A stretch of 33,726 nt of DNA from Thermoplasmata archaeon (GTDB taxonomy: Archaea; Thermoplasmatota; Thermoplasmata; Thermoplasmatales; Thermoplasmataceae). The notes below the pieces were generated by a model that was not told where the DNA came from, did no database searches, and saw only the letters and a program-made list of their open reading frames with translations. Numbering within the stretch: the first letter of the stretch is position 1; every line of letters starts with the position of its first letter. This document shows positions 26,161-30,204 of this stretch, piece after piece. Location of the stretch: the NCBI GenBank assembly GCA_021797555.1, contig JAJZZM010000018.1, positions 1 to 33,726 of the forward strand. Reading direction: 5' to 3'. Both the position numbers and the translations under genes were made by a program.

Positions 26161-26165
26161 GCAGA

Positions 26166-26855
26166 TTATTTTTCTATTATTTCACCGTGAAATGGAATTA
26201 TGATTTTGCTTTTTATATTTATTAATTTATTGAATGATTTTACTGCTTCATTATAATCTTCACAGAAAAACTTAAACGGTGGCTTTATACCATATGTATT
26301 ATTTATAGCATCACCTGCAATCAATATATTATTATATAATACTGAAATGTGGCCTTTAGTATGCCCTGGTGAATTTATTATTTTTATGTTGCCAAATGTT
26401 TCCTCTGATTTTAGATATATATCTGCATTTATTTTACCACGTTTTATATGATTTATCCTATCTGTAGTTTTATAAAATTCCTCTTCATTTGCATTTAAAG
26501 TTGATTTTACATCATTATAATCTATATTAAATAAATCTTCATTTAACAGCTTTTCTTTCTCATTTTCCCCTGCTATTATCTTTGCACCCGATATTTCCTT
26601 AATAGCATTAACATTGCCTGTATGATCCGGATGATAATGTGTTATAAATATATATGATATATCATTTATATTATATTTCAATTTTTTTAAGAAATTTGAG
26701 ATAATTCCCATATTACCAGGGAGCCCGGTATCTATCATAGCTAAACCATTTTTATAACCATCTTCTATAAATGTAATATTATGGTTTAAAACGGTGCCAA
26801 AAAAATCTGGTTCAAGCATTTCAAGGATATGCACATTACCTGATATCATTACCAT
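26166..26855 (-). CDS. metallo-beta-lactamase fold hydrolase (glyoxalase II-like)
   Basis: A zinc hydrolase with THYHPDH (72-78), SPGHTKGH (162-169), AGDA (180-183) and a final PFHGE, the full set of metal ligands of the glyoxalase II/lactonase-type subgroup. The start is uncertain. The frame is open to a TTG at 26873 with GGTGAA two bases before it. I prefer ATG 26855 (or 26849), which puts the first beta strand (NVHILEM) where the family begins. It overlaps the 3' end of the U32-like gene by 20 bases at this start, so the two are co-transcribed. Substrate unknown; a thioester or lactone is possible. Confidence 0.78.
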   Translation of the reverse strand: MVMISGNVHILEMLEPDFFGTVLNHNITFIEDGYKNGLAMIDTGLPGNMGIISNFLKKLKYNINDISYIFITHYHPDHTGNVNAIKEISGAKIIAGENEKEKLLNEDLFNIDYNDVKSTLNANEEEFYKTTDRINHIKRGKINADIYLKSEETFGNIKIINSPGHTKGHISVLYNNILIAGDAINNTYGIKPPFKFFCEDYNEAVKSFNKLINIKSKIIIPFHGEIIEK

Positions 26856-27975
26856 CTTTAAACGCCTGTACAAGATTCACCGGTATTTTCATGTTTTTAT
26901 TTTCGCGGCCAATAATATTTTTACTGCCTATTGACATAGTTTTGTATGCTATTTTATCGCAGTAACCACAGACCTCACAGCTCATTGAATTACAATCGTT
27001 GTATTTAAAGAAATTTAACCATTTTCCAGGGAATTTTTTATTGTCTATATATACATTTTTTAGTTCACTATAATTATCCGGGCCATTGATTTTTGCCATG
27101 GCCCCTGGTACAGCGTTGCCCTGCGGATAACTTAAAATATCTAATAAATTGCCATCATAATTTCTATCAGAATAAGCTTTTATAGACTTTAATATCCAGG
27201 ATGTATTTTTGGTTCTTGATGCAATTTTAAAACGGTCTATGCCTATATCTTCATACATCTCTGTATCCTCGGGCCTGATCCACCTCATTTTTATAATATT
27301 TTTAGGGTCATTGTATACATCTGTTGCACAGAATAACAGGGGATATTCAAACCAGAACCTTTCATTATTATTTTTTGATGATAAGGATGATACAATGTCA
27401 TGTGTTCTTCTGTATGGGCATCCAAATAAACATGAATTGTCAGTTATTAATTCTATATCCATACCATTGGATTTTACATAATTATTTGCATTCTCCAGAA
27501 ATTTAAAATCCCTTGATGTATCTTCATTTAATATTATAGTATTTACATCCAAATTTTTATATTCCTCAATTTCACGCATTGTAGATATTCGTGCAAACGA
27601 GGATGCTGATATTTCAATGTCCGGGTATTCTTTTCTTATTTTGCCTATCAAAAATGGCATTGCAGCAATAAAACCATCAACACCATAGGATACGAGCTTT
27701 TCTATTTCATTTTCTATATTTTTATTAAATTCGGGAGAATATTCATTGCCATTCAATACAGCACTATTCATTACATATAAAAATTTCATATTATTTTTAT
27801 GTATTAAATCTATATGTTCTTTAAAATGGTCTTCGTCTATATCCGGCAATATAAATGATGCCCGTCCATGGCCCGTAATTGTTTTTTTAAAGCTGCCAAA
27901 TAAATATTTTACAGGATATTTATGAATTTCTTTTATAAGGTTATCATCAAAATTTGTTCCAACAACCAGTCTCAT
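26836..27975 (-). CDS. peptidase U32 family-like protein with C-terminal cysteine cluster
   Basis: A 379-residue protein related to the U32 family (YhbU/UbiU/TrhP type). The family anchor G-I-D-x-x-K-I-x-x-R is seen as GIDRFKIASRTKN (245-257). Cysteines in SCLFGCPYRR (Cys182, Cys186) and LLFCATD (Cys216) resemble the iron-sulfur ligands of UbiU/TrhP. An extra C-terminal set, C-x4-C-x2-C-x2-C (Cys328, 333, 336, 339), could hold a second cluster or zinc. Many members once called peptidases are now known to take part in RNA or ubiquinone hydroxylation, so protease activity should not be assumed. It shares its upstream region with the divergent peptide/radical SAM genes and overlaps the MBL gene. 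Confidence 0.72.
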   Translation of the reverse strand: MRLVVGTNFDDNLIKEIHKYPVKYLFGSFKKTITGHGRASFILPDIDEDHFKEHIDLIHKNNMKFLYVMNSAVLNGNEYSPEFNKNIENEIEKLVSYGVDGFIAAMPFLIGKIRKEYPDIEISASSFARISTMREIEEYKNLDVNTIILNEDTSRDFKFLENANNYVKSNGMDIELITDNSCLFGCPYRRTHDIVSSLSSKNNNERFWFEYPLLFCATDVYNDPKNIIKMRWIRPEDTEMYEDIGIDRFKIASRTKNTSWILKSIKAYSDRNYDGNLLDILSYPQGNAVPGAMAKINGPDNYSELKNVYIDNKKFPGKWLNFFKYNDCNSMSCEVCGYCDKIAYKTMSIGSKNIIGRENKNMKIPVNLVQAFKDGNDIR

Positions 27976-27986
27976 AATGACTTATT

Positions 27987-28090
27987 AGTTATTATTATTT
28001 TATTATTAGCTTTTTTATGAATATTTTCGTCACATAAATAATATATAAATAAAATATTAATATTAATTATCTTGATGTAGCATGAAAACA
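27987..28090 (+). repeat. promoter/leader repeat, copy A
   Basis: About 104 bases covering the promoter and first codons of the small peptide gene are repeated at 29833-29936 in the same orientation at roughly 80% identity by eye. Shared blocks include TATTTTATTATTA, CTTTTTTATG, AATAATATATAAATAAAAT and the ATGAA start region. It also lies just upstream of the divergent U32-like gene. Confidence 0.75.
28041..28055 (+). promoter_or_regulatory. TATA box for the small peptide gene
   Basis: ATATATAAATAAAAT lies 27-41 bases before the ATG at 28082. It predicts a start point about 10 bases before the ATG, so the leader would be very short. The element is conserved in copy B (29888-29902). Confidence 0.6.
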
Positions 28091-28165
28091 ACAACAGAAG
28101 TAAAAATAGTGAAATTGGATAGAAAGCTATGCAGGTGTGGTTATTCACCAAGCTGGGGAAATTAA
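28082..28165 (+). CDS. 27-residue cysteine-containing peptide, putative RiPP precursor
   Basis: A 27-codon ORF. The first 16 residues are lysine/threonine/valine-rich (start MKTTTEVKIVKLD), like a short leader. The last 11 read CRCGYSPSWGN, with two cysteines one residue apart, an aromatic pair and small residues, like a modifiable core. Its stop overlaps the start of a radical SAM/SPASM enzyme (TAATG), the arrangement of precursor and maturase in radical SAM peptide systems. A promoter is correctly placed, and a diverged second copy of promoter and start exists downstream. Which bond the enzyme would make (thioether, cyclophane at the WGN end, or other) cannot be told. The family is not one I recognise, and a chance ORF is not fully excluded. 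Confidence 0.6.
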   Translation: MKTTTEVKIVKLDRKLCRCGYSPSWGN

Positions 28166-28183
28166 TGCCCCAGCAATTTTTTT
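28152..28183 (+). terminator. hairpin plus T-run at the peptide/radical SAM junction (possible attenuator)
   Basis: GCTGGGG (28152-28158) and CCCCAGC (28168-28174) form a perfect 7-bp stem around a 9-base loop, followed by AA and seven Ts (28177-28183). The stem lies in the last codons of the peptide gene and the loop contains the enzyme's ATG (28165-28167). It could end most transcripts after the peptide gene or hide the enzyme's start codon, giving more peptide than enzyme. Confidence 0.6.
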
Positions 28184-29013
28184 CTAATTATAATATATTT
28201 ATTAAAGATAATGATGACTATATACTTTTTAATACACTAACAGGCTATGCATTAAGATTATCTGGCTATGAAAAATCCATGATAGAAAATGGTGATATAC
28301 CGGGGGGTCTTGAAGACTTATTTAATGAAGGTTTTATAACAAGTGATATAAACATAATTTTTGATAATTTAACGCTTAAAAAAAATGTTTTTGAACCGAC
28401 ATTATTGCTAACATATAATTGCAATTTTGACTGTTCATACTGTTTCCAGAAGGATTACAGGAATAGAAGTTATGTAAATAATGATGTTATTGATGGTTTT
28501 GTTAATTATATAAATAAAAATAATAATGGAAGAAAAACAAGAGTAACATTTTTTGGTGGAGAGCCTTTGCTTAATATAAGGGCAATAAAGGAAGTGTCTG
28601 AAAGGTTAAAGAATATAAATTATGAATTCAGCATAGTTACAAATGGGTCCCTATTAACAGAGAATATAGCCAATGATTTATACAGTTATGGATTAAGATA
28701 CGTTCAGATTACACTTGATGGCCCCGAAGATGTGCATAATAAAAGAAGATATTTTGAGAATGGCCGCGGATCGTTTAATATTATAATGAAGAACCTGAAA
28801 TATGCACAGAATATTTTTAATGTTGTATTGCGTGTCAATATAGATTATTCAAATGAAAATGAAATAGATAAATTATTAGAAGATTTAAAATTAAATGGCA
28901 TAGAAAATGTGAGGATAGACCCACATATAGTGCATGAAAATCTATTTAGAAACGAAGCGTGGGATGAAAATATACCAAGGAAAAACGAGCATATGGAGAT
29001 AAAAAATATATGA
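28165..29013 (+). CDS. radical SAM domain of a SPASM-type peptide maturase, ends at in-frame TGA
   Basis: A 282-residue radical SAM protein. CNFDCSYC (86-93) is the CxxxCxxC motif for the SAM-binding 4Fe-4S cluster, FFGGEPLL (129-136) is the GGEP motif, and VTNGSLL and QITLDGPEDVHNKRR are later strands typical of SPASM maturases. The N-terminal 75 residues resemble the leader-binding segment of such enzymes. ATG 28165 overlaps the peptide stop; the next ATG (codon 39) would cut off this segment. The frame stops at TGA (29011-29013) just before the SPASM domain, which continues in the same frame for 125 codons. TGA is a real stop elsewhere in this window (rpl18e, FKBP). The gene is therefore a recent nonsense mutant, a split enzyme, a read-through case or a sequencing error. 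Confidence 0.8.
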   Translation: MPQQFFSNYNIFIKDNDDYILFNTLTGYALRLSGYEKSMIENGDIPGGLEDLFNEGFITSDINIIFDNLTLKKNVFEPTLLLTYNCNFDCSYCFQKDYRNRSYVNNDVIDGFVNYINKNNNGRKTRVTFFGGEPLLNIRAIKEVSERLKNINYEFSIVTNGSLLTENIANDLYSYGLRYVQITLDGPEDVHNKRRYFENGRGSFNIIMKNLKYAQNIFNVVLRVNIDYSNENEIDKLLEDLKLNGIENVRIDPHIVHENLFRNEAWDENIPRKNEHMEIKNI

Positions 29014-29391
29014 AATAAGATTAAAGGTTGTGGATTTAAAATACCAGATGATGCTTTTAGGCTCGGAATATGTGTTGCCCATATAGATAAGGACATAATA
29101 GTTGACCCATATGGATATATATATCCATGCTGGGCATTTACAGGAGATAAAAAATATATAAAAGGCAGGTTAGATAAAAATGGTGATGTAATAATTTTAA
29201 ATAAAAATTTAACGGCGGGCAAAGCAGCAATGGCATGGAAAAATGATGAATGCATAAATTGCCCATATCTACCAATGTGCTTTGGAGGGTGTAGATTCTT
29301 TTCTGTTTTAAATGGGAATTCATTTTCTGGCAAGGAATGCAGAAAGGACTTATTCATGGAAACATTAGAATTTATAAAGGAGTTTGTTTAA
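29014..29391 (+). pseudogene. SPASM domain continuing the radical SAM frame after the TGA
   Basis: These 125 codons directly follow the TGA in the same frame and have no further stop or shift. Numbered from the upstream ATG, the cysteines are C303-x13-G-x4-C322, then C363-x2-C366-x5-C372-x3-C376-x15-C392. This is the complete SPASM pattern for two auxiliary iron-sulfur clusters (C-x9-15-G-x4-C, then C-x2-C-x5-C-x3-C-x~17-C). No ATG, GTG or TTG suitable for separate translation lies near the beginning; the ATG overlapping the TGA reads ATG AAA TAA. If the TGA is real and not read through, this part is not made. Confidence 0.75.
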
Positions 29392-29401
29392 AACAATAGA
29401 A

Positions 29402-29543
29402 ATTGTTATAATTATTATATCATTGGCACCACCTGAATATAATGATGGAAAACCTGAAACAAATATTGTTTTCTGACCGGACTTCAGGAAGTTTAATGAT
29501 GATAATTCATTAATTAAATCATATATATTATTCAAAAATTTTT
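29402..29543 (-). repeat. 142-bp copy of an internal pyruvate kinase gene segment
   Basis: Identical to 30494-30635 except for one base (A at 29414, C at 30506), in the same orientation and 1,092 bases apart. The source codes for the C-terminal part of the enzyme around NNIYDLINELSSLNFLKSGQ and SGFPSLYSGGAND. It has no start or context of its own here, so it is a non-functional insertion from a very recent duplication. Confidence 0.93.
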
Positions 29544-29611
29544 GATCACTTTGCATAATGGGTTTATAAAAAAACCTGTTAATGTAATTAAAATATTAAA
29601 GTAAATACAGA

Positions 29612-29765
29612 AAAATCAGATGTTAGAACTTTAATAAATAAGTGTTGATATAACATTATTAAGTGGTTTATAAAAATGCAAAAGAAAGTGGATATAAAAC
29701 GGTTACAGATGAAAATAGACATTCCTTGGAAGATAAATATAAAATAAATGTTTCATTGAAAAACA
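29612..29765 (+). pseudogene. decayed fragment of a glyceraldehyde dehydrogenase-like gene
   Basis: Aligns with about 25615-25765 of the aldehyde dehydrogenase gene. SDVRTLINK matches SDIGPLINK, and after a frame disruption KNAKESGYKTVTDENRHSLEDKYK matches KNARESGYKIVTGGNKPSLEGNYK. Internal stops and many substitutions show it is old and dead, unlike the nearly perfect pyruvate kinase copy next to it. Confidence 0.75.
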
Positions 29766-29832
29766 TGTAATGTATACCAGAATTCGCCATTTTAAAGTTG
29801 CAGAAATATTTTACATGGTAATAAAATTTGCA

Positions 29833-29936
29833 AGTTATCAAATATTTTATTATTATCTTTTTTATGTATATATTCGATGGATTAATAATATATAAATAAA
29901 ATATAAAGATTAATAATTTGGATATGATATGAACAC
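29833..29936 (+). repeat. promoter/leader repeat, copy B
   Basis: Second, diverged copy of 27987-28090. It keeps the TATA element and an ATG at the matching position (29929), but the ORF after it has only nine codons (start MNTKGIKTA) before TGA, with no cysteines and no maturase gene behind it. Confidence 0.72.
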
Positions 29937-29942
29937 AAAGGG

Positions 29943-29998
29943 AATAAAAACGGCATGATGTATTACTTACATATTTTATTTTGCCCGCCGTTTTTATT
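29943..29998 (+). terminator. 12-bp inverted repeat downstream of copy B
   Basis: AATAAAAACGGC (29943-29954) and GCCGTTTTTATT (29987-29998) are perfect inverse complements around a 32-base loop. The right arm itself contains a T-run. It may end transcription from promoter copy B. The remaining stretch to 30204 is AT-rich and I see no gene in it. Confidence 0.45.
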
Positions 29999-30204
29999 TC
30001 TGAATATATTGTTTTATTATAATCTTCCATTTTTAAAGATTTATTAACATTATCATGAGGACATAATATAAAATGTTAATATAGTTATATTTAGTAATTA
30101 AGAAATATTTGAATTTATCTTATAACTATAATTATTAAATAATTATGGACTTCTTTATCCAATGAAATATTTTTATCTTATTATATGCCAGTTTATAAAT
30201 AAAT

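Follow-up and report, generated by a model that had tools for sequence, protein, structure and literature searches.

A peptide of 22–28 residues with a near-invariant C-terminus is encoded directly 5′ of a radical SAM/SPASM gene in 19 genomes of acidophilic archaea from two phyla, and the best reading of these sequences is that the pair represents an undescribed radical-SAM RiPP family. The locus under study lies in a window of 33,726 nucleotides, the whole stretch of DNA that was analysed, and its features are listed below. Taken as a whole, it is highly probable that this is a RiPP-type locus in which a Cys thioether is formed to the last residue of the peptide, with possible tailoring by a U32-family protein and a metallo-beta-lactamase-fold (MBL) protein, and with an intracellular product. 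The Sulfolobales and Thermoplasmatales, dwellers in similar acid habitats, share the near-invariant precursor and its maturase; the clean presence or absence of an island, together with the two accompanying enzymes, makes the pathway directly testable. Most known radical-SAM RiPPs are bacterial, and little has been described of the peptide natural products of archaea. In the open-access literature we found no paper joining radical SAM, SPASM, Sulfolobus and RiPP and none with the string YSPSWG, and the accessible portions of a report on Ferroplasma biosynthetic clusters (PMC12350378) do not describe the locus.

26161–30204, no strand: island flanked by the genes for aldehyde dehydrogenase and pyruvate kinase; seven congeners lack it
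26166–26873, minus strand: MBL protein (Pfam PF00753; co-occurrence)
26836–27975, minus strand: U32-family protein of 379 residues with seven invariant Cys, divergent from the pair (Pfam PF01136; co-occurrence)
28041–28051, plus strand: TATA-like box (ATATATAAATA), about 30–40 bases 5′ of the peptide ATG (from sequence)
28082–28165, plus strand: precursor peptide ORF, 27 codons, 27 residues (MKTTTEVKIVKLDRKLCRCGYSPSWGN); sequence, and an orthologous ORF in 18 relatives
28133–28162, plus strand: core RCGYSPSWGN, RC[GN]YSPSWG[NQED] over 19 genomes
28165–29391, plus strand: radical SAM/SPASM maturase gene, interrupted; 408 codons when the internal stop is disregarded
28189–28374, plus strand: N-terminal domain of the maturase, residues 9–70, three strands then three helices, putatively RRE-like (AlphaFold2 model)
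28420–28443, plus strand: radical SAM motif CX3CX2C (C86, C90, C93), 19/19 genomes
29011–29013, plus strand: in-frame TGA at the site of an invariant Trp (W283)
29071–29340, plus strand: SPASM Cys set C303, C322, C363, C366, C372, C376 and C392, 19/19 genomes

The proposed precursor peptide and its maturase gene

A sequence-only reading of this DNA had described a 27-codon ORF ending in CRCGYSPSWGN, preceded by a promoter and overlapping the enzyme gene in a TAATG, and the sequence agrees: the ORF is present, its TAA stop (28163–28165) shares a base with the enzyme ATG at 28165, and there is a TATA-like stretch, a candidate promoter, with TAAATAAAAT kept in the two genomes of the window's genus with the pair (G063 and G065). 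The peptide consists of a leader, MKTTTEVKIVKLDRKLC, followed by the core. The window has a single occurrence of the core pattern, and 100 shuffles gave none even when three mismatches were permitted. No NCBIfam family matches the peptides, and their single Pfam match is insignificant.

All 18 full-length homologues of the enzyme outside the window, three from Thermoplasmatales and fifteen from Sulfolobales (the latter from a search of 214 genomes in the order of G419, with 50–57% identity), have a short ORF directly upstream that ends RC[GN]YSPSWG[NQED]-stop, and maturase identity between the two orders is 49–57%. The peptides directly upstream are METTEVKLLKLDRKLCRCGYSPSWGN in G063, MEVTEVKLLKLDRKLCRCGYSPSWGN in G065 and METIERKVLKVERKACRCGYSPSWGN in Acidiplasma aeolicum VT (G041), with MEKRKVVKIERKMGRCNYSPSWGQ and MEATLQAKKVVVIERKYGRCGYSPSWGD as examples from the Sulfolobales, where 15/15 have such an ORF. 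A further homologue, in the MAG named Sulfolobus sp. UBA167 (G419), is cut by a contig end. The RiPP proposal had named homologous enzyme genes lacking a small ORF as its refutation, and every intact gene with 5′ sequence (18/18) has one; as expected of a RiPP system, a short precursor with conserved leader and core consistently adjoins the maturase, in these 18 and in the window.

Across the 19 genomes synonymous variation is seen at all core codons but that of Trp, and one core Ser uses AGY as well as TCN codons. Among 42 genomes, each one with an uncut pair has a single copy of the pattern without mismatch, beside the enzyme, and the others have none. A sample of 400 genomes from the window's class has it only in the four with the pair, and in a sample of 398 genomes from the phylum of G419 the close enzyme is confined to the set already found in the order of G419. 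These whole-genome searches are the basis of the distribution given here, because a scan of named genomes, which returned only four loci, used search words drawn from the Thermoplasmatales alignment. Neither enzyme nor peptide was found in viral contigs. The core has near-matches in G055 and G077, which lie antisense to ribonucleotide reductase genes and are due to chance, and plasmid matches are distant maturases with less than 30% identity among the matches listed.

The C-terminus that had been predicted for both orders, C-x-C-G-aromatic, is conserved in part. The end itself is kept and the position of the G is occupied by G or N, but the first Cys of C-x-C is Gly in the Sulfolobales and only the second is conserved across relatives; the proposed core of two Cys and an aromatic residue is thus not upheld, and because of the Gly replacement C-x-C is not the essential feature of the peptide.

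The maturase gene of the window is interrupted. The radical SAM motif and all seven SPASM Cys do lie in the frame that starts at 28165, as had been noted, but this frame is not open and the working enzyme that was implied is not supported. The TGA splits it into a 282-codon part containing the radical SAM domain (Pfam, 8e-24) and a 125-codon part containing the SPASM domain (TIGR04085, 58.9 bits, cutoff 27), so that the CX3CX2C motif and full SPASM Cys set seen in 19/19 genomes are separated by a stop in this one. TGG is present at this site, within an open 408-codon gene, in G063, G065 and G041 (the last from the window's family), and residue 283 is Trp in 18/18 other full-length homologues; TGA as a sense codon was rejected, as the standard code leaves neighbouring genes open and the relatives have TGG. 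Relative to G063, dN/dS is 0.061 before the stop and 0.083 after it, and there is no surplus of amino-acid changes specific to the lineage (12, the stop counted, against 13), which suggests that the break is recent or that a single base is wrong through sequencing error. Without a SPASM domain, which the interrupted gene would not yield, peptide maturation should fail in the window's strain.

The question of whether the window's cassette is a decaying pseudo-system is evenly balanced. The TGA falls on an invariant Trp, there is duplication debris 3′ of the enzyme gene, the cassette is absent from congeners, and a cassette has decayed independently in G599 (L085), where a deletion that cost the core together with most of the enzyme fuses the peptide core (after GRC) to the C-terminal region of the enzyme. 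However, the low dN/dS on both sides of the stop and the lack of excess changes argue against decay, the peptide, U32 and MBL genes are intact, and the single base could be a sequencing error or a strain polymorphism.

Partner genes, inheritance and probable role

The U32 and MBL genes and the island that holds them had been overlooked in the sequence-only reading. The nearest NCBIfam model to the U32 protein is TrhP, with a score far below the cutoff, and its Cys pattern is divergent; its seven Cys and Glu175 are kept in 28/28, and its structure model (pLDDT 52) is too poor for a fold search. The MBL protein has a complete HxHxDH-H-D-H ligand set, conserved in 26/26. All four genes, those of the peptide, maturase, U32 and MBL proteins, lie within the island of about 4 kb. 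Its flanking genes, for aldehyde dehydrogenase and pyruvate kinase, are close neighbours in seven congeners, with measured spacings mostly of about 60–190 bases and, in G066, of about 535; the four genes thus behave as one unit.

The head-to-head arrangement of U32–MBL and the pair is also seen in G041 and in G602–G606, among which we take G605 to be Metallosphaera sedula and G602 to be M. cuprina. U32 and MBL genes are present in 20/20 genomes with the pair, counting the broken pair of the window and the contig-cut G419, and among 22 genomes searched in the window's family they occur only in the four with the pair. Six Sulfolobales genomes have U32–MBL without the pair and two have U32 alone, which speaks against an exclusive link. 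In G609–G611 the MBL gene is directly 3′ of the enzyme gene, and both branch with the Metallosphaera copies while the U32 genes branch elsewhere; the enzyme and MBL genes appear to have moved together in these genomes. In the enzyme tree the Thermoplasmatales are nested inside the Sulfolobales (97/96), which suggests transfer of the cassette enzyme from Sulfolobales to Thermoplasmatales, with a root that is uncertain owing to long outgroup branches. No such nesting is seen in the U32 and MBL trees, which were drawn with midpoint roots.

Two other arrangements were observed. First, many Sulfolobales have, 3′ of U32–MBL, radical SAM genes of AhbD-like (TIGR04053) and NirJ1/AhbC-like type (L072, L075, L076, L079, L081, L092, L095, L097, L101, L105 and L107), a possible link to heme-type chemistry. 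Secondly, the window's enzyme gene and pyruvate kinase gene are separated by an insert (29392–30204) that G063 and G065 lack; it comprises a 142-base copy of the pyruvate kinase gene (99% identical), a piece of the aldehyde dehydrogenase gene (about 69% identical), and a copy of the peptide promoter (81%) followed by a 9-codon ORF (MNTKGIKTA), a composition pointing to duplication or recombination debris.

No conserved gene for transport or immunity adjoins the pair, and for this reason the product probably acts inside the cell, as a cofactor or a metal or redox ligand, and not as a bacteriocin. Typical bacteriocins diversify their core, and the core here does not; that it is almost unchanged between two phyla suggests a single conserved product, closer to a cofactor than to a weapon. 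Loss has been repeated, as seen from the stop in the window, the absence from congeners and the deletion in G599, and the best fit is an intracellular product that is useful yet can be dispensed with. A specific form of this, in which cross-linking of the core is joined by hydroxylation or cleavage by the U32 protein, and the MBL protein finishes a small redox molecule similar to PQQ or mycofactocin, is possible, with something less than an even claim. It accords with the near-invariant core, the missing exporter, the co-inheritance of U32 and MBL and the part that characterised U32 proteins play in hydroxylation (PMC6599085, PMC6747719), and it is compatible with a thioether. Like those of PQQ and mycofactocin, the precursor here is short and strongly conserved and is accompanied by a SPASM enzyme and further co-inherited enzymes. 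However, its sequence is different, a U32 protein is present and its Cys pattern is divergent, the island holds no recognised PqqC, PqqD or MftE-type genes, PqqE and the mycofactocin maturase are both outside the 25 best families of the peptide-linked enzyme, the peptides have no family hit, and no cofactor-using enzyme has been identified. We only tentatively suggest that a radical SAM maturase, a U32 oxygen-independent hydroxylase and an MBL protein together make a new peptide-derived cofactor or cyclic peptide from the invariant core; if true, this would be a radical-SAM RiPP common to Sulfolobales and Thermoplasmatales, and a RiPP pathway in which a U32 protein does the tailoring. A role in the synthesis of caldariellaquinone, a sulfur-containing, tyrosine-derived quinone common to Sulfolobaceae, was considered and dropped, as the cassette is missing from many Sulfolobales genomes.

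Enzyme kinship and proposed chemistry

The best solved relative of the maturase, both by sequence and by fold, is CteB, whose product is a Cys–Thr thioether (PMC11002830). The top-ranking curated families are CefB, geopeptide, TIGR04463, Clo7bot and PapB, and the maturase falls far below the cutoff of these and of every other curated maturase. CefB (Cys-every-fifth, NF038107; 216–236 bits, cutoff 600) and the geopeptide maturase (TIGR04280; 230–233 bits, cutoff 400) are nearest over the full length (233–236 bits), although the precursor here is without a Cys repeat, and PapB (NF047865) gives 150–157 bits (cutoff 340). The ranthipeptide maturases, CteB of the SCIFF system and PapB of freyrasin, resemble this enzyme in being SPASM enzymes beside a short precursor, in giving the best sequence and fold match, in probably having three Cys for auxiliary cluster I, and in the Asp, Glu and Asn acceptors known there. 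They differ in that known precursors are Cys-rich or have CX3D, whereas there is one conserved Cys and no CX3D spacing here, and in that the U32 and MBL partners are found here with an enzyme far below the curated cutoffs.

We propose that the N-terminal domain of the maturase, which may be an RRE, binds the charged leader (the AlphaFold2 model is of moderate quality, with pLDDT 66 and moderate confidence over residues 9–70), and that a SAM-derived radical would then activate a carbon in the core. The seven SPASM Cys align with those of CteB, and by analogy they would satisfy one auxiliary cluster, with three remaining for the other, auxiliary cluster I, at which a non-Cys ligand is possible and for which His306 could be the fourth. 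Ranthi- and sactisynthases have an open site of this kind and can bind substrate at an auxiliary cluster, which SuiB and PqqE cannot do (PMC8326336). If the three-Cys cluster is open to substrate in this way, the single invariant Cys of the core would thus be a natural donor, held by the cluster for thioether formation. The likeliest acceptor would be the C-terminal residue, which is always N, Q, E or D; these side chains all have a CH2 next to a carbonyl, and such an acceptor is plausible. A nine-residue ring, C-[GN]-Y-S-P-S-W-G-[NQED], would then close from Cys to C-terminus. Acceptors known in ranthipeptides are Asp, Glu and Asn (PMC9413430, PMC11002830), and PapB tolerates long spacings (PMC9413430). 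Against the reading as a whole, N and Q are less usual acceptors than D and E, and there are the six Sulfolobales genomes with U32–MBL and no pair.

The U32 and MBL proteins may subsequently trim or oxidise the product, a weaker part of the proposal. The reactions in which characterised U32 proteins take part are hydroxylations, of RNA bases or of ubiquinone precursors, and most members are thought to bind an Fe-S cluster (PMC6599085, PMC6747719); because of this, hydroxylation of Tyr or Trp by the U32 protein would be at least as likely as proteolysis.

The main chemical rival of the thioether is a triceptide-like cyclophane, in which the Trp indole is joined to the beta-carbon two residues on and the Cys has some other role, and we consider it rather unlikely. 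The core has the aromatic residue and the acceptor at i+2 that typify triceptides (3-CyFE), with W-G-[NQED] in 19/19 and both Trp and the last residue conserved, and a C-terminal W-x-[N/D] as in the triceptide systems (OscB/GrrM, XncB, YhhB) fits OscB targets, in which Trp C7 is joined to Asn/Asp C-beta (PMC11002830). However, the enzyme is not close to the OscB/GrrM, XncB or YhhB families, scoring 60–111 bits with the cyclophane maturase models DynA, YhhB and GrrM (YhhB 69, cutoff 445; GrrM 60, cutoff 310), much lower than with thioether maturases such as PapB; the single Cys is invariant, and E and Q are without report as OscB acceptors in the same review. That the short ORF is instead a regulatory leader peptide controlling downstream translation is very improbable, for although the TAATG stop/start overlap is present in the window's Thermoplasmatales genus and Trp is conserved, the peptide is conserved even where its spacing to the enzyme start varies between lineages, the enzyme is one of the peptide maturases, and we know of no comparable leader peptide family in these archaea.

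Beyond the family for which a thioether is preferred, two other short ORFs were noted 5′ of enzyme genes. G040 and G020, from the window's order, encode another radical SAM enzyme of 466–468 residues directly 3′ of a different conserved short ORF, MIKPITKGN[IV]KT[AT]PPSPLC[SA]YICSP[AV]K.. (L010, 1374–1466 of the reverse complement; L012, from 316), and these are candidates for a second RiPP family. In G508 (L070, from 1350 of the reverse complement) a 463-residue relative of the enzyme is 3′ of the ORF MMPQSKVIVLERGITSVKEPNFCGTFCRTVCGLIITKK, in which Cys recurs at each fourth position and the leader is similar to the VxxxER motif.
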